64,000 nt of DNA from positions 1,111,501 to 1,175,500 of the forward strand of contig OCMG01000004.1 in assembly GCA_900215285.1 (NCBI GenBank), read 5' to 3'. Origin of the DNA: Ensifer adhaerens. Lineage in GTDB: Bacteria > Pseudomonadota > Alphaproteobacteria > Rhizobiales > Rhizobiaceae. Positions 9,170 to 45,587 of this stretch are shown piece after piece (position 1 is the stretch's first letter; the number at the start of each line of letters is the position of its first letter). The notes beneath the pieces were generated by a model. It worked only from the letters and a program-made list of their open reading frames with translations, was not told the DNA's origin and searched no databases. The position numbers and the translations under genes are program-made.

Positions 9170-10534
9170 TCAGTTGTGGTAGGCGGCTTCGCCGTGGGAC
9201 GACAGGTCGAGACCTTCGCGTTCGGCTTCCGGCGAGACGCGCAGGCCGATGATGAGGTCGGTGATCTTGTAGAGGATGATCGAACCGATACCCGTCCAGG
9301 CGATCGTGGTCAGAACGGCTTCGATCTGAACCCAGACCTGATGACCCATGGTCACGCCTTCCGCATAACCGACGCCGCCGAGGCTGGCCGAGGCGAGAAC
9401 GCCCGTGCCGATGGCGCCGAACATGCCGCCGATGCCGTGAACGCCGAAGACGTCTGCGGTGTCGTCATAGCCGAACTTGTTCTTCACGACCGAGACGAAG
9501 AAGAAGCAGAGCGGGGAGACGAGAATGCCGAGGACAATCGCGCCCATCGGACCAGCAATGCCGGCTGCCGGAGTGACGGCAACGAGGCCGGCGACCATGC
9601 CGGAAATGCCGCCGAGCATCGAAGCCTTGCCACGGACGATCTTTTCAACCAGCGACCAGGAGAGCGTTGCTGCGGCCGTTGCCACGAAGGTGTTGACGGT
9701 TGCAAGCATTGCGCCGCCCGAAGCTTCGAGGTTGGAGCCGGCGTTGAAGCCGAACCAGCCGAACCAGAGCATCGCAGCGCCGACCATGGAAAGCGTCAGC
9801 GAGTGCGGAGCCATCATGTCCTTGCCGTAGCCAATGCGCTTGCCGACCATGATTGCGCCCACCAAACCGGCAACACCGGCGTTGATGTGAACGACCGTAC
9901 CGCCGGCGAAGTCGAGCGCGCCAAGCTTGAAGAGCAGGCCGTTGGAATCCCAGACCATGTGAGCGACCGGGAAGTAGACGAATGTTGCCCAGAGGCCGCA
10001 GAAGAGTACGGCTGCGCCGAACTTGATGCGCTCGGCAAAAGCGCCGAGGATCAGGGCAGGCGTGATGGCCGCGAAGGTCATCTGGAAGAGCATGAAGATC
10101 ATTTCAGGAATGACAACGCCCTTGGTGAAGGTGGCGGACGTCGTGGATGTGGTCACGCCGGCCAGGAACATCTTGGCAGTGCCGCCGAAGAAGGCGTTTT
10201 CGCCGCCGCCGAAGGCGAAGGAGTAGCCGTAGAGAACCCAGAGCAGCATGACGGTGCAACCGACCACCGTCGTCTGCATCAGCATCGACAGCATGTTCTT
10301 GCCGCGGATCAGGCCGCCGTAGAACAGGGCCAGGCCCGGAACGATCATGAACAGAACGAGCAGGGTCGAGATGAACATGAAGGCGGTGTCGCCCTTGTTC
10401 GGGATGGGATCGGCAGCGGCAGCCGCCGCGGCGGCAGGCGCTGCTGCATCCTGCGCAAATGCGACGACGGGCGCGAGAAGCACCGTCGCTGCGAGGCCTG
10501 CGCGGCCGAGAATGGAAAGCTTCGAAGAGGACAT
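9170..10534 (-). CDS. amtB: Ammonium transporter AmtB
   Basis: High-affinity ammonium channel partnered by GlnK. The 454-residue protein has a cleavable-looking N-terminal signal (L-L-A-P-V-V-A-F-A-Q), an Ala-rich spacer, then eleven transmembrane segments. Conserved pore elements are visible: A-H-M-V-W, D-F-A-G-G-T-V-V-H-I-N with the first pore His, and D-V-F-G-V-H-G-I-G-G with the second. It follows glnK by 26 bp on the same strand, the classic glnK-amtB operon, so expression should follow nitrogen status through the sigma-54-type promoter at 10990-11005. Confidence 0.95.
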   Translation of the reverse strand: MSSSKLSILGRAGLAATVLLAPVVAFAQDAAAPAAAAAAAADPIPNKGDTAFMFISTLLVLFMIVPGLALFYGGLIRGKNMLSMLMQTTVVGCTVMLLWVLYGYSFAFGGGENAFFGGTAKMFLAGVTTSTTSATFTKGVVIPEMIFMLFQMTFAAITPALILGAFAERIKFGAAVLFCGLWATFVYFPVAHMVWDSNGLLFKLGALDFAGGTVVHINAGVAGLVGAIMVGKRIGYGKDMMAPHSLTLSMVGAAMLWFGWFGFNAGSNLEASGGAMLATVNTFVATAAATLSWSLVEKIVRGKASMLGGISGMVAGLVAVTPAAGIAGPMGAIVLGILVSPLCFFFVSVVKNKFGYDDTADVFGVHGIGGMFGAIGTGVLASASLGGVGYAEGVTMGHQVWVQIEAVLTTIAWTGIGSIILYKITDLIIGLRVSPEAEREGLDLSSHGEAAYHN

Positions 10535-10560
10535 AGATATTAACTCCCTGAACGCAACGC

Positions 10561-10914
<354 letters not shown>

Positions 10915-10989
10915 TCATGTGTACGCCCCAAAGGAGGGGCAAAGCGTCATGCCGCCGGCCGGTTATCCGTCCGGGACCGCAAAGACACA

Positions 10990-11005
10990 TTCAAGGTCCG
11001 TGCCA
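10990..11005 (-). promoter_or_regulatory. Sigma-54 (RpoN) type promoter for glnK
   Basis: On the minus strand the sequence reads TGGCACGGACCTTGAA, matching the -24 element perfectly (TGGCACG) and the -12 element in TTG, with A in place of the usual final C. Spacing is the expected one. Predicted transcription start is roughly 80 nt before the glnK start codon. NtrC sites were not recognised with confidence. Confidence 0.7.
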
Positions 11006-11120
11006 GATTCGAAATTAAGTGGAACTTACTGTTTTTATTAAGAAAAAATGACCGCTTCGGTTCGGGGCCAAAAATTGGCGAAATTGTGGAGCGATTGTCC
11101 GCATAAAAAATAGGCATAAA

Positions 11121-11144
11121 TAAAAAAATGCATAATACTTATGC
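11121..11144 (-). terminator. Terminator overlapping the tesB stop
   Basis: On the minus strand, GCATAA-GTA-TTATGC followed by a run of seven T. The stem is AT-rich and begins at the tesB stop codon, so it is compact but plausible. Confidence 0.55.
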
Positions 11145-12023
11145 AGTTGCACGTTTCCGAATCAAACCTTCCTGTGCCACCGAAGCGATCAGCACGCCTG
11201 AGCGGTCATAGAGGCTGCCGCGTGTCATGCCCCGCGCGCCAGAAGCGCTCGGGCTGTCCTGCACGTAGAGCAGCCAGTCATCCAGCGAGAAATCCCGGTG
11301 GAACCACATGGCGTGGTCGAGGCTCGCGACCTGAAGCCTGCTGTCGAAGACCGAGGTTCCATGTGCGTAAAGCGAGGTGTCGAGCAGGGTCATGTCGGAC
11401 AGATAGGCGAGGATCGCCGCGCGCAGGCGGCGGTCGTCCGGCGAAGGGCCGGTCGTGCGCACCCAGACATTCTGCACCGGCTCCAGCTGCTGGCGATTGA
11501 AATAGTCCTCCGGATAGGCGGGGCAGAATTCGATCGGGCGGGGGCGCAGCCAGTAACGGCGGATTGCTTCCGGCGCATTCTCGACGTAGCGCGACACGAT
11601 GTCGCCCTCACCGCCCAGCTGTTCCGGCGTCGGCACCGGAGGAATGGTCTGCTGATGCTCGAAGCCGTCCTCGTCTTCCTGGAAGGAGGCGGACAGCGAG
11701 AAGATCGCCTTGCCGTGCTGAACCGCGACGACGCGGCGCGTGGTGAAGCTCTTGCCGTCGCGGATGCGGTCTACCTCATAGACGATCGGGATCGAGGGGT
11801 CGCCGGGGCGCATGAAGTAGGCGTGCAGCGAGTGCACGAAGCGGTTCTCGTCGACGGTGCGCTGGGCGGCAACGAGCGCCTGCGCGATCACCTGTCCGCC
11901 GAACACGCGCTGCCAGCCGACCTGGGGGCTCGTGCCGCGAAACAGGTTTTCCTCCAGCTTTTCCAGATCGAGCGTTGCGATCAGTTCCTGCATGGGCGAA
12001 AAATTGCCTGCTTCGGCCGACAT
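11139..12023 (-). CDS. tesB: Acyl-CoA thioesterase II
   Basis: Hydrolyses medium- and long-chain acyl-CoA to free acid and CoA. The 294-residue protein is the normal double-hotdog TesB length. N-terminal hotdog has the F-G-G-Q-V-I-A-Q-A-L helix and the R-P-G-D-P-x-x-P-I motif; the C-terminal repeat has L-D-T-S-L and S-L-D-H-A-M-W-F-H. It is transcribed divergently from the UbiH-like gene, with about 110 bp between start codons. Confidence 0.93.
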   Translation of the reverse strand: MSAEAGNFSPMQELIATLDLEKLEENLFRGTSPQVGWQRVFGGQVIAQALVAAQRTVDENRFVHSLHAYFMRPGDPSIPIVYEVDRIRDGKSFTTRRVVAVQHGKAIFSLSASFQEDEDGFEHQQTIPPVPTPEQLGGEGDIVSRYVENAPEAIRRYWLRPRPIEFCPAYPEDYFNRQQLEPVQNVWVRTTGPSPDDRRLRAAILAYLSDMTLLDTSLYAHGTSVFDSRLQVASLDHAMWFHRDFSLDDWLLYVQDSPSASGARGMTRGSLYDRSGVLIASVAQEGLIRKRATA

Positions 12024-40307: not shown

Positions 40308-43300
40308 TTATTTCTTCATCTGGTCCTTGAGGATCGCGAGCTTGGCGAAGGGCGAATCCGGATCGATCGGCTTTTCCTTGCGGGGCGGGGCCGCACTCAT
40401 CGACTTGTTGCGGTCATTGCGATCATGCTGGGGCTTGCCGCCGCCATGACGGTTCTCGTCGCGGTCGCGATGCGACTTGCCACCCGGCTTGCCGCCAAAG
40501 CGCTGCTCCTTGCGGTCGCCCTGGTTGCGGTCGCCTTGCGGACGTTCTCCTTGGGCGCGATCGCGGTTGCCTCCACGGTTGGCACCCTGGTTGCGATCGC
40601 CCCGGCCTTCGCCTCTGCCTTCGCCGCGATTTTCACCACGGTTCTGGTCGCGATTTTGATCACGGGGACCACGGTTGTCGCGGCGCGGACCGGCGTTCTG
40701 GCGCGGTTCGCGCTCGTGACGGCCACCCGGACGCCACAGGAGAACCGGCTTGGGGGCTGCTTCTTCGGCGGGCGCTTCGGCCGTTGCCACAGCTTCGGCG
40801 GGAGCTGCTTCGGCAGCGGCTGCCTCGACTGGAGCGACTTCCGCGGGAGCGGCGGCGGCCTCTGCCGGCTGTTCTTCATGTTCTTGGCCAGCATCGCTGT
40901 CGGCGGTGTCGTCCTCTGCTGCTGCTTCCGCAGCGGCGGGAGCGGCGGCGCCTTCTGCCGGTGCGGACTTGGCGTCCTGTGCGGCAAGGTAGGTCGCGGC
41001 TTCTTCGGCCGTCACGCTGTCGGCGCGATAACCGAGGCCCTTGAGGATCTCTTCCATATCGTCCGGCGTTGCGCCGAGGATCGACAGCATGGCCGGTGTC
41101 GTCACGAAGCGGCGGCCGTCATAGGCGCCGTCTGGACGCTTGCCCGTTTCCGGCTTCCACTGCAGGAGCGGACGGATGAGGTCGGCGAGGCGTTCCAGAA
41201 TGTCGATGCGCACGGCGCGCTTGCCGAGGAAGCGGAAGCCGGCGAGGCGGTAGAAATTGCGCTCGATGGCGTGGTCGGTCACGACCGAGGTGCGGCCGGC
41301 GGCGAGAACCGGGATCAGGTCGCCATAGCCGGGCTTGTCCATCGCGTCGTTCTTCAGCGCCCAGAGGAGCGTGATGAGTTCGGCCGGTGCCGGCTTGAGG
41401 AGAGCCGGCATGAAGACATGGTAGGCGCCGAAGCGGACACCGAGCTTGCGGAGTGCCGCGCGATGCTCCTGGCTCAGCGACTTCACCTCTTCGGCGACGT
41501 CGCGGCGGAAGAGCACGCCGAGATTCTCGACCAGCTGGAAGGCAAGGCCCTTGGCGAGACCTTCGAGGTCTTCAGCGCGGGACAGGTCGTCGAGCGGCTT
41601 CAGGACCGTTGCGATGTGATGATTGACGAAGCGCTCGATGCGGGCGGCGACGTGATCGCGCGCCGGACCGGTCAGCTGCTCGTCGGCCAGAAGGATGACG
41701 CGCGGATGCAGGATATGATCGGTGGAGACGAGACGCGCGACGGGATCGCCGAGCCAGCGCACGACGCCTTCCGAGGTCAGCGCCAGATCGCCATTCCCGG
41801 CAGCGTGCAGCCGAGCGGCGCGCGCTTCGAATTCCAGCGCGAGCGCCTTCTGCGCTGCCGACAGCATCGCCTTGGCTTCCTGGCCTTCCGCCGCATTTGC
41901 CAGCGTGAACCGGAACCCGGCCAGCTGCCCGACGTGGTGGCCTTCGACGAAGACGTCACCGTTTACACTGATTTCTGCTTCCAGCATCGCATTCTCTCTC
42001 AAGCGCTTCATGAGCACAGATGTCCTGCGATCAACAAAGCGTTTCGTCAACCTCTCATGCAGCGCGTCGGATAGCCTATCCTCGATTTCGCGCGTCTTTT
42101 CTTGCCAGTGTGTCGGATCGGCAAGCCATCCCGGACGGTTCGACACATAGGTCCAAGTTCTGATTTGCGCAATGCGCGCCGATAAACTGTCGATTTCCCC
42201 GTCCGTGCGGTCCGCGCGGCGAACCTGTTCGGCCATGTAGTCCTCGTTGACATGGCCGCGGCGGACCAGATCGGAATAAATGGTCGAAATGATGTCGGCA
42301 TGCTGCGCGGGGGCAATCCTGCGATAGTCGGGAAGGGCGCAGGCCTCCCAAAGCGTCTCGACGCGGGCCGGGCGATCTGCCAGATCACGGATCTCGGGAA
42401 GTGCGGCGAGGAAGTCGAGCGCCTGCAGGTCGACGGCCGGCAGAGCCCGCGTCAGACCGCTGACGGTTGGGGCGGCGTTGAGGCTTTCCTGCAGCGCGCG
42501 GATGGTGGAATAGTCCACCGCCTTGGAGCGCCATTGCAGGACCTTCACCGGGTCAAAGACATGCGCCTCGATGCGCTCCACCAGCTCGTCGTCGAAGGGG
42601 GCGACCTGGCCTGTCACGCCAAAGGTGCCGTCATTGAGATGGCGGCCGGCGCGGCCGGCGATCTGGCCGATCTCGCCGGGATTGAGATTGCGATACTGGT
42701 AACCGTCGAACTTGCGGTCCTGAGCGAAGGCGACATGGCCGACATCGAGGTTGAGGCCCATGCCGATGGCGTCGGTGGCGACGAGAAAATCGACGTCGCC
42801 GGACTGGTAGAGGCCGACCTGGGCGTTGCGGGTGCGGGGGCTCAGTGCCCCGAGCACGACAGCGGCGCCGCCGCGCTGGCGGCGGATGAGTTCGGCGATC
42901 GCATAGACCTCTTCCGCCGAGAAGGCGACGATGGCCGAGCGGGCGGGAAGGCGGGTGATCTTCTTCTGGCCCGCATAGAGAAGCTGCGACAGGCGCGGGC
43001 GCTCGACGATGGTGATTCCTGGCAGGAGGTGACTGAGGATGGGGGCCATGGTCGCGGCCCCGAGGAACAGCGTTTCTTCGCGGCCGCGCAAATGGAGGAT
43101 ACGATCCGTGAAGATATGGCCGCGCTCGAGATCGCCGGCGAGCTGGACTTCATCGATCGCGGCAAAGGCCGCCTTCGTCTCGCGCGGCATGGCCTCGACC
43201 GTGCAGACCGTGAAGCGCGCGCCGGGTGGGGAGATCTTCTCCTCGCCGGTGACCAGCGCGACATTGGCCACGCCGACGCGTTCGGCCACACGCGTGTAAA

Positions 43301-43451
43301 CCTCACGCGCCAGCAGCCGCAGCGGCAGGCCGATGACGCCTGAGCCATGGGCAACCATGCGCTCGATGGCGAAATGGGTTTTGCCGGTATTGGTCGGTCC
43401 AAGCACCGCGGTCACGCCGCGGCCGCTCAGGATCATGGGCTGGATGGTCAC
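40308..43451 (-). CDS. Suv3-like superfamily 2 RNA helicase with RGG-type tail
   Basis: A 1047-residue helicase. The N-terminal motor has Walker A G-P-T-N-T-G-K-T (about 18-25), motif II I-D-E-V-Q and the I-A-G-R-A-G-R motif VI, as in mitochondrial Suv3/MgpS-type helicases. The middle (about 350-860) is helical. The last 200 residues are low-complexity: Ala/Glu/Pro-rich (A-E-A-A-A-A-P-A), then Arg/Gly/Asn/Gln-rich with G-E-G-R-G-D-R-N, then a Lys-rich end (I-L-K-D-Q-M-K-K). Such RGG tails bind RNA and can drive condensate formation. Likely a degradosome-type RNA helicase; substrate unknown. Confidence 0.9.
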   Translation of the reverse strand: MTIQPMILSGRGVTAVLGPTNTGKTHFAIERMVAHGSGVIGLPLRLLAREVYTRVAERVGVANVALVTGEEKISPPGARFTVCTVEAMPRETKAAFAAIDEVQLAGDLERGHIFTDRILHLRGREETLFLGAATMAPILSHLLPGITIVERPRLSQLLYAGQKKITRLPARSAIVAFSAEEVYAIAELIRRQRGGAAVVLGALSPRTRNAQVGLYQSGDVDFLVATDAIGMGLNLDVGHVAFAQDRKFDGYQYRNLNPGEIGQIAGRAGRHLNDGTFGVTGQVAPFDDELVERIEAHVFDPVKVLQWRSKAVDYSTIRALQESLNAAPTVSGLTRALPAVDLQALDFLAALPEIRDLADRPARVETLWEACALPDYRRIAPAQHADIISTIYSDLVRRGHVNEDYMAEQVRRADRTDGEIDSLSARIAQIRTWTYVSNRPGWLADPTHWQEKTREIEDRLSDALHERLTKRFVDRRTSVLMKRLRENAMLEAEISVNGDVFVEGHHVGQLAGFRFTLANAAEGQEAKAMLSAAQKALALEFEARAARLHAAGNGDLALTSEGVVRWLGDPVARLVSTDHILHPRVILLADEQLTGPARDHVAARIERFVNHHIATVLKPLDDLSRAEDLEGLAKGLAFQLVENLGVLFRRDVAEEVKSLSQEHRAALRKLGVRFGAYHVFMPALLKPAPAELITLLWALKNDAMDKPGYGDLIPVLAAGRTSVVTDHAIERNFYRLAGFRFLGKRAVRIDILERLADLIRPLLQWKPETGKRPDGAYDGRRFVTTPAMLSILGATPDDMEEILKGLGYRADSVTAEEAATYLAAQDAKSAPAEGAAAPAAAEAAAEDDTADSDAGQEHEEQPAEAAAAPAEVAPVEAAAAEAAPAEAVATAEAPAEEAAPKPVLLWRPGGRHEREPRQNAGPRRDNRGPRDQNRDQNRGENRGEGRGEGRGDRNQGANRGGNRDRAQGERPQGDRNQGDRKEQRFGGKPGGKSHRDRDENRHGGGKPQHDRNDRNKSMSAAPPRKEKPIDPDSPFAKLAILKDQMKK

Positions 43452-43570
43452 GTCGTTCTTGTTCCCGGCTTGGCCGGCCTTGCTTTTCTCGTGCCCAGAG
43501 ACATGCCCGCTCGGGCGTGGAAGTGCAAGGGCGAAGGTGATTGGGACAGGTCTGGCAGATGGTGTTTCAA

Positions 43571-43599
43571 ACGCTGTTCCGCAAGCCTCGGAACAGCGT
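43571..43599. other. Perfect 11-bp-arm hairpin
   Basis: ACGCTGTTCCG and CGGAACAGCGT with a 7-nt loop CAAGCCT, immediately before the first GANTC pair. There is no T-run, so it is not an ordinary terminator. It may be a protein-binding or structural element of the block. Confidence 0.7.
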
Positions 43600-43827
43600 G
43601 CGAACGAATCGGAGACGAATCGATGACTCCATGTCGTTCTTTATTTGTTCTATACCATATCTAGTCGGATTCACAGAATCATCTCCACATCATGAATCTC
43701 GCGGTGGAATCCGGATTCGTGTCGCGGAGGGTCCGGGGAATCGCTCGTGCGTGTTGGCAAGCGGCTTTGGAGATTATGGTTAACAGATTGCTAATTCTGG
43801 CTAATTTCTCCCCATTTTGCCGTCTCC

Positions 43828-44127
43828 GTTAACATCTCGATCAAAGCCGGAACGAATCATCGACGAATCAGAGATGTGTTTCCGTTGCGGATCTGTTCTC
43901 CACAAGATGTGGTGGGTCTTGTGGCGCGCGGCGCATAGAACCGATTCGGGCGCGTTCCGTTTTTCGATGTGCTCGACGTCAGCGTTAACGATTGGCGGGC
44001 GGGTGTTTATGAATCGGTAAGCCTTGGCGGATGTTAACTTTTGCCGCGTCGAACCAAAGCGGGAACGAATCATCGACGAATCACCGACCTTGTCGTCTTC
44101 CCGGTTTGTTCACCGCAATATGTGGTG
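43828..44127. repeat. Two-copy diverged tandem unit with a GANTC pair
   Basis: Units at 43828-43912 and 44033-44127 share the same order: GTTAAC, then GGAACGAATCATCGACGAAT, then a dyad around ATGTGGTG (CCACA-AGA-TGTGG at 43900-43912; CACCGCA-ATA-TGTGGTG at 44111-44127). A third GANTC pair with the same flanks (GAACGAATCGGAGACGAATC) is at 43603-43621 but lacks the GTTAAC. Spacing between the GANTC pair and the dyad is conserved to within 1-2 bp. Confidence 0.65.
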
Positions 44128-44270
44128 CAAAAACAATTTGTTAACCATAGATATGAGTGCGCACAAAGCCTCTTGACCGCGCTTTTGTTAACCTTTGCGC
44201 TTGCGGGCGGGAACGTTCTGTTTTCTGGTTGGGCTGCAAGGAATCAGAATGAATTTGAGGGGAGGGAGTG

Positions 44271-44684
44271 ATGGAACTCGTCACCTATCGCGGTGTCGTC
44301 TATCCTGTTCAATGCGACGTCATGGGGCATATGAATGTGCAGCATTATATCGGCGCGTTCGATCAGGCCGGATGGCATCTGGTCGCCGCCATCGGCTACA
44401 AGCCGACCTGGCTGAAGGAGCGCAACTGGGGCTGGGCGGACCGGCGCTACGAGATCGACTTCATTGATGAGCTGCCGGTGGGGAGCCTCTTCGAAGTGCG
44501 CAGCCGGTTCCTGAAGGTCGGGCGCACGTCTCTAACGACGCATCATGCGATGTACAATTCGGAGAAAGGGACGCTGTCCGCGGAAATCACCGCCGTGACG
44601 ATCCTGTTCGATCTCGTGGCGCGCAAGTCGACGCCGCTGCCGCCGGAGATGGTCGAGGGAGCGAAGGCTTATCTGGCTGAGTGA
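44271..44684 (+). CDS. Acyl-CoA thioesterase (4HBT hotdog family)
   Basis: A 137-residue single-hotdog thioesterase. The N-terminal motif Q-C-D-V-M-G-H-M-N-V-Q-H-Y places the catalytic-type Asp next to the helix start, as in YbgC/4-hydroxybenzoyl-CoA thioesterases. The substrate is not known. Start is the ATG at 44271 with GGGGAGGGAG upstream; an in-frame GTG one codon before is unnecessary. Its promoter must lie in the GANTC-rich block. Confidence 0.85.
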   Translation: MELVTYRGVVYPVQCDVMGHMNVQHYIGAFDQAGWHLVAAIGYKPTWLKERNWGWADRRYEIDFIDELPVGSLFEVRSRFLKVGRTSLTTHHAMYNSEKGTLSAEITAVTILFDLVARKSTPLPPEMVEGAKAYLAE

Positions 44685-44861: not shown

Positions 44862-45587
44862 TCAGGCGAAATACTGTCCGCCATTGGCGGTGATGGTCGA
44901 GCCGGTGATGAAGCCGGCGTCGTCGTTGACTAGGAAGACCACGCAGCGGGCGATTTCTTCCGGTTCGCCGAGGCGGCCGACCGGGATCTGCGGGATGATG
45001 CGTTCGTTGAGCACCTTTTCCGGCACCGCACGCACCATTTCCGTGCCGATATAGCCCGGGCAGATGGCGTTGACGGTGATGTTCTTCATCGCGCCTTCCT
45101 GGGCGAGCGCCTTGGTGAAGCCGATGTCGCCGGCCTTGGCGGCGGAATAGTTCGCCTGACCCGCCTGACCCTTCTGGCCGTTGATCGAGGAGATGTTGAC
45201 GATGCGGCCGAAGGCGCGGTCGCGCATGCCGCCCCAGACCTGATGTGTCATGTTGAACAGGCCGGTGAGGTTGGTGTCGATGACTTCCTTCCACTGCTGC
45301 GGCGTCATCTTGTGGAACATGGCGTCACGCGTGATGCCGGCATTGTTGACGAGAATATCGACGGGGCCGAGTTCTGCCTCGACCTTGGCAATGCCGTGGC
45401 CGCAGGCTTCGTAGTCAGAAACGTCCCACTTGAAGGTGTGAATGCCGGTCACCTTGGTGAAATCGGCGGCGGCTTCGTCATTGCCCGCATAGGTGGCGGC
45501 AACCTTGTAGCCAGCATTCTTGAGAGCGATGGAAATGGCCGCGCCAATGCCGCGCGAGCCCCCTGTGACGAGTGCGACTCTGCTCAT
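44862..45587 (-). CDS. phbB: Acetoacetyl-CoA reductase
   Basis: NADPH-dependent reduction of acetoacetyl-CoA to (R)-3-hydroxybutyryl-CoA, the second step of poly-3-hydroxybutyrate synthesis. The 241-residue short-chain dehydrogenase has the N-terminal T-G-G-S-R-G-I-G motif, N-N-A-G, the catalytic Ser in I-S-S-I-N-G-Q-K-G-Q-x-G-Q and Y-S-A-A-K. Length is typical. It follows phbA by 89 bp on the same strand. A PHB synthase gene (phbC) is not in this window. Confidence 0.96.
   Translation of the reverse strand: MSRVALVTGGSRGIGAAISIALKNAGYKVAATYAGNDEAAADFTKVTGIHTFKWDVSDYEACGHGIAKVEAELGPVDILVNNAGITRDAMFHKMTPQQWKEVIDTNLTGLFNMTHQVWGGMRDRAFGRIVNISSINGQKGQAGQANYSAAKAGDIGFTKALAQEGAMKNITVNAICPGYIGTEMVRAVPEKVLNERIIPQIPVGRLGEPEEIARCVVFLVNDDAGFITGSTITANGGQYFA

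Follow-up and report, generated by a model that had tools for sequence, protein, structure and literature searches.

An 816-bp non-coding block is flanked by a helicase gene (minus strand) that we take to be SUV3-like and by a thioesterase-like gene (plus strand), with phaB and phaA beyond the latter. The block is made up of three copies of a module of about 84 bp with nearly fixed spacing. With a probability of roughly 0.48, we read it as a tandem CcrM/GcrA methylation-responsive regulatory region, mainly of the helicase gene and possibly SOS-modulated. Many rhizobia and related bacteria have retained the module, frequently in duplicate or triplicate and in most cases next to one helicase gene. 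Among the roles that a first-pass annotation had offered for this block, a promoter region read by its methylation state is now the best reading. That annotation mentioned neither the repeating module nor the YGATTCG context of its sites, nor the resemblance to SOS boxes or the link to the helicase. Features are collected in Table 1.

Table 1. The module array and its surroundings; positions are those of the window, the whole 64-kb stretch of DNA analysed (G000:C4:1111501-1175500; source genome 5.19 Mb in 6 contigs)
Feature	Position	Strand	Basis or remark
SUV3-like helicase, likely regulated gene	40308..43451	-	homologue comparison
Module copy 1, nearest helicase	43581..43664	+	core GANTC 43606, 43617; further GANTC 43625; model R1 match 43583-43665, 62.5 bits
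GAACN7GAAC, SOS-box-like pair, left flank of module 1	43591..43605	+	motif search
GTTCTTTATTTGTTC, SOS-box-like	43636..43650	+	identical 15-mer between ssb and uvrA, same genome
TTATGGTTAACAG... block between modules 1 and 2, CtrA-like (TTAACC half-site)	43775..43797	.	sequence count and genus alignment
Module copy 2	43829..43912	+	core GANTC 43854, 43865; holds TTCTCCACA 43896-43904; model R1 match 43828-43913, 63.4 bits
Module copy 3	44042..44125	+	core GANTC 44067, 44078; model R1 match 44049-44126, 65.5 bits
Thioesterase-like gene	44268..44684	+	beside array solely in loci of source genus, among loci compared
phaB (acetoacetyl-CoA reductase)	44862..45587	-	other-side neighbour kept in many relatives

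The array is a real outlier in GANTC density for its contig. A recount agrees with the 16 sites in 640 bp first reported and places them at 43606-44245; the window holds 102 in all, and its second-densest 640-bp stretch has 4 (20-bp grid). The excess over chance stands, but the expectation of 2.5 sites given with it was too low, as 3000 first-order Markov simulations of 819 bp gave a mean of 4.8 and a maximum of 13. GANTC is far sparser elsewhere, with 531 sites and at most 7 per 640 bp in twenty 20-kb stretches of the same contig, and those 400 kb contain no GANTC pair spaced by 11 bp, versus the three in the array, which had been noticed from the start and are the core sites of the three modules. 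The six GTTAAC words are likewise there, the only ones in the window and all inside the array (43779-44192), as are the two octamers, TTAACCAT at 44141 (+) and its other-strand form ATGGTTAA at 43776, and the DnaA-box-like word in module 2. The hairpin at 43571-43599 does have perfect 11-bp arms, and was also scored with longer imperfect arms in an inverted-repeat listing, but by eye it is not kept in every member of the genus alignment.

Merging modules at least 85% alike reduced 254 copies to 178, whose consensus is TTAAC-N5-GNAC-N6-GGAACGAATCGGCGACGAATC-N3-GAC-N9-TTC-N4-TTTGTTCAC-N2-CNANATNTNG, with few gaps and a strongest internal lag of 11 bp. One exact core-pattern match in Paraburkholderia antibiotica (L132, 2044), which has no helicase and is probably due to chance, was left out; later module statistics refer to 177 modules from 102 loci, and an earlier tally of 317 had counted some modules one repeat out of register. 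Copies of the type that is usually helicase-proximal bear extra GANTC sites, giving recurring spacings of 8, 10 and 11. At one extra site, unused for selection, the single-letter variants of GAGTC fall solely at the free base (22 GAGTC and 5 GACTC of 71), a pattern expected if methylation were the conserved property; at another (position 34) the variants fall elsewhere, and 43 of 71 copies have GATTC.

The presence of the module in relatives was examined in several samples of loci and genomes. Of 58 family relatives with a match to the helicase, the best-scoring 29 gave loci picked by protein rather than by motif, and 24 of these have at least one module (L011, L027, L028, L030 and L031 have none). 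In these protein-picked loci the 11-bp pair is found in 40 of 47 modules, with both sites fitting YGAKTCK in 39, so the idea that the sites are conserved across family relatives holds. A model, R1, built from 45 modules (including some loci later scanned with it) finds the module in 225 of 297 genomes of the family, spread over 85 of 109 genera, in 210 of 297 genomes of the order (86 of 123 genera) and in 17 of 190 genomes of the class (15 of 168 genera), 14 of the last outside the order. Where checked, these modules mostly lie upstream of the helicase gene. The family and order samples overlap, and these many-genome searches used stricter filters. In the source genome the core word occurs at the array locus, plus one three-mismatch match elsewhere. 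The close relative Rhizobium sp. C4 (L047) has a helicase start that is 99% identical. In Rhizobium sp. NLR16a the helicase-array-phaB-phaA-phaR block is on a record labelled as plasmid p3 (L155), so part of the chromosome may have moved there or been mislabelled.

Linkage to the helicase gene is close. Among the matches listed, the helicase is present in 107 of 119 stretches picked by exact pattern (L036-L154, in which at least two contigs each gave two adjoining stretches); of the remaining 12, 11 stop within roughly 1 kb on the side where the helicase is expected and one is the Paraburkholderia stretch. In 10 of 11 loci from the class search, two of which are inside the order, the helicase lies about 90-480 bp from the module. 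The protein has no NCBIfam match. We take its S. meliloti counterpart to be SMc03877 (mgpS), and PMC4941405 names SMc03877 as an RNA helicase. Mesorhizobium loci (e.g. L039, L042) have a further block, GGAACATTCCGCTTTCGCTTCGCG...TATGTGTCG, about 70-130 bp before the helicase start and kept in 17 species, which is possibly the helicase's own promoter.

The sequence around the core sites resembles a GcrA motif. Read towards the helicase, the core GANTC is YGATTCG, which fits YGAKTCK, the motif given for GcrA activation in Caulobacter in PMC7987155, and methylated GANTC is bound in vitro by the GcrA orthologues of S. meliloti and Brucella according to PMC3667746. Within the window, 7 of 18 minus-strand YGAKTCK words are in the block, facing the helicase, versus 1 of 15 on the plus strand. 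In pattern-picked loci the middle A of each core GANTC was preset by the search pattern, which leaves only the purines after the two sites free; these purines, which give the Y and belong to no search pattern, are conserved in 176 and 177 of 177 modules. All 47 modules in the loci of the 24 relatives have one core GANTC that reads YGATTCG towards the helicase, and every order-level module checked (31 of 31) and every class-search locus (11 of 11) has at least one CGAATC[AG]. The deepest invariant is a single GANTC. The second core site, at a distance of one helical turn, is frequent just within the family: the 11-bp pair is retained by only 8 of the 31 order-level modules and 4 of the 11 loci from the class search, which counts against the favoured reading. 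So does the Brevundimonas GcrA, for which PMC7987155 reports no extended motif; according to the same paper such motifs are common. All 18 of the 18 module-bearing genomes tested have GcrA itself, as do 32 of 42 genomes that have no module (one below the cut-off), and the ten genomes that lack GcrA all lack the module (one-sided Fisher p = 0.02, ignoring shared descent). The co-occurrence counts for the favoured reading, its confounding by descent against it; one archaeal control was matched by the GcrA family model as well. A sigma70-type promoter scan found 1 site versus 0.8 in shuffles, using an E. coli-type consensus.

The sites, their geometry and conservation, the motif match and the helicase linkage are observed; from them we infer methylation, binding of GcrA and LexA, and an effect on transcription, which could work together as follows. 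Each module would present towards the helicase a CcrM site with the GcrA-type surroundings YGATTCG, accompanied as a rule within the family by a second site exactly one helical turn away. Passage of the replication fork would leave the core GANTC hemimethylated until CcrM acts, so the binding of GcrA with sigma70 RNA polymerase, and hence helicase transcription, would change with the cell cycle. SOS-box-like half-sites on both flanks might let LexA, or a protein of similar specificity, modulate that transcription. The array resembles the CcrM/GcrA promoters of Caulobacter ctrA, mipZ and ftsZ and of Agrobacterium gcrA (the last with 6 GANTC in 250 bp according to PMC11514494) in its clustered GANTC upstream of a gene and their YGAKTCK context. 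It differs from them in that the module is long, has a nearly fixed geometry and an 11-bp pair, occurs in two or three tandem copies and is found at one locus across an order; its GcrA binding is putative.

We found no description of this locus in the literature (titles and the starts of abstracts), and supplements such as the table of S. meliloti hypomethylated GANTC sites or the Brucella GcrA peaks may hold it. Hypomethylated promoters and the CcrM and GcrA regulons are described in PMC5172544 and PMC8725594 as overlapping little between alphaproteobacterial species. A module of CcrM sites that stays at a single locus throughout an order, and in parts of further orders, would stand out as an uncommon stable target. 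With it one could test directly whether rhizobia read hemimethylation, and it may connect the timing set by GcrA/CcrM with the SOS response and with a little-studied helicase.

Several loci depart from the usual arrangement and count against control of the helicase. A helicase match is absent from 3 of the 18 module-bearing genomes tested (G010, G091 and G644), some modules sit between gene ends, and no gene was seen in the helicase-like direction of the module in G010, in L228 and L233 or on the plasmid of L156. Outer module copies also persist where other genes are inserted between them and the helicase. These exceptions, together with the lack of an excess in the promoter scan, would also be compatible with a movable regulatory module or with a stand-alone element. 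The latter, which is the main rival, would be a cis-acting DNA locus and not a promoter, whose modules bind a replication or segregation protein (titrating DnaA, for example, or sensing fork passage via hemimethylation) and which keeps its place next to the helicase by conserved gene order, much as oriC does next to hemE. The occurrence of DnaA-box-like words in some regions would suit it, as would a module on the 3' side of hemE in 42 of 43 tabulated rows, the 25 of known size having it at 0.01-0.58 of the arm, in a raw tally that has no neutral gene-order baseline (one module locus per genome, with G064 and G106 apparently a single genome and G120, G283 and nine others left out). We nevertheless consider it unlikely. 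The helicase linkage is close and constant in direction across orders, and in some genomes a module elsewhere again precedes another gene in the helicase-like direction: pmbA in G091, a secreted-protein gene in G644, and a small secreted protein gene at the second module copy of two family f35 genomes. In L232 a module precedes a TetR-type gene. The distance from module to hemE varies from 37 kb to 2.3 Mb (a second f35 locus is at about 3.1 Mb), and in the same 43 rows the helicase points towards hemE in 18 and away from it in 25. DnaA-type boxes (TT[AC]TCCACA) are found in only 23 of 114 regions, with no consistent cluster, so the role for DnaA that the first-pass annotation had raised is weak.

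DnaA-titrating and DnaA-reactivating loci are known in E. coli as datA and DARS. By analogy, the array could be likened to them as repeated non-coding sites away from the origin with methylation sites, but its modules have no consistent DnaA boxes and are usually linked to one gene. We note that the stretch with the orphan module on plasmid p2 of Sinorhizobium sp. B11 (L156, 3995-4075), between a LysR-type gene and paoA, has no helicase, that CRISPR-like repeats, recognised from repeated peptide strings in translations, lie between the two modules of G010 (L234, about 9562-11839), and that two modules in G388 (L233, 5305-7010) are near chromosomal-type parA and parB and a DUF3108 gene. A broader proposal, which seems to us quite unlikely, is that the module is a dedicated DNA element of the order and some neighbouring orders, not tied to one gene, in which CcrM sites between facing half-sites would form a nucleoprotein switch that registers the passing fork by way of hemimethylation and links DNA-damage signals with transcription in the cell cycle or with initiation.

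The alphaproteobacterial SOS box bound by LexA is GTTCN7GTTC, and the module flanks share its half-sites and 11-bp spacing. The left flank has GAACN7GAAC in 91 of 177 modules, and the right flank GTTCN7GTTC in 29 and TTCN7GTTC in 156, the flanking pairs facing each other about 45 bp apart. In 114 regions, many of them pattern-selected, GAACN7GAAC occurs 1.10 times and GTTCN7GTTC 0.33 times per region versus 0.018 in Markov-simulated controls. One exact copy in the array is common to the ssb/uvrA intergenic region of the same genome, a similar site precedes dinB, and another lies immediately 3' of ruvC and ahead of a small gene pair (gene names were assigned by eye from the translations); GTTCN5TTGTTC is present nine times in the source genome, against five for the reversed control. 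The block could then be under mainly SOS control, with LexA on the flanking GAAC/GTTC pairs repressing the helicase until DNA is damaged and the GANTC sites secondary. This is improbable, as an exact box on either strand is found on at least one flank in just 103 of 177 modules (which counts against the SOS part of the favoured reading as well), the half-sites are often degenerate and form facing pairs around GANTC, the deepest invariant is the GANTC site, and the remainder of the module is missing at ordinary SOS boxes of the source genome. Additional SOS-box-like sites there stand before uncharacterised or radical-SAM-like genes (L163, L158, L159).

That the block is the promoter region or body of an unannotated small RNA, as its non-coding, repeated nature and sometime lack of a target gene might suggest, is very improbable: Rfam gave no match at gathering scores and none credible below them, the consensus fold has -0.5 and -2.7 kcal/mol on the two strands versus 0.0 in column shuffles, with a mean single-sequence z of -0.8, and terminator-like sites number 2 versus 1.3 in shuffles, so an RNA element was rejected. 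An OmpR/PhoB-type regulator (ChvI/BvrR) was considered as a candidate binder from the 11-bp head-to-tail spacing. GGAAC is the ECF -35 consensus word, and was rejected because by eye it has no partner at the right distance. CtrA had also been suggested, and TTAACC-type half-sites are indeed frequent, but full TTAA-N7-TTAA dyads are found in just 7 of 114 regions, and a CtrA array was rejected for that reason. In four relatives (L003-L006) the CtrA-type dyad TTAA-N7-TTAACC is complete at the place where the window, at 43775-43797, departs from it by one mismatch.

The Caulobacter origin combines GANTC, GTTAAC and a DnaA-box-like word, as does the array, and the alphaproteobacterial oriC beside hemE has GANTC, TTAAC-type words and a DnaA-box-like word. 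That the array is a chromosomal origin is nevertheless scarcely credible, and the origin-like role first entertained falls with it, because sampled GC skew flips near hemE (-0.012 at 1.00 Mb, +0.026 at 1.06 Mb) and is positive through the window on both sides of the array, and the module-hemE distance varies widely. As the first-pass annotation had said, hemE is not here; it lies at 1,047,664, some 107 kb from the array. DnaA-box-like words also occur upstream of hemE, and beside them, outside the 400 kb sampled for GANTC, lies one 11-bp GANTC pair (G000:C4 1,047,460/1,047,471; L166 7461 and 7472).
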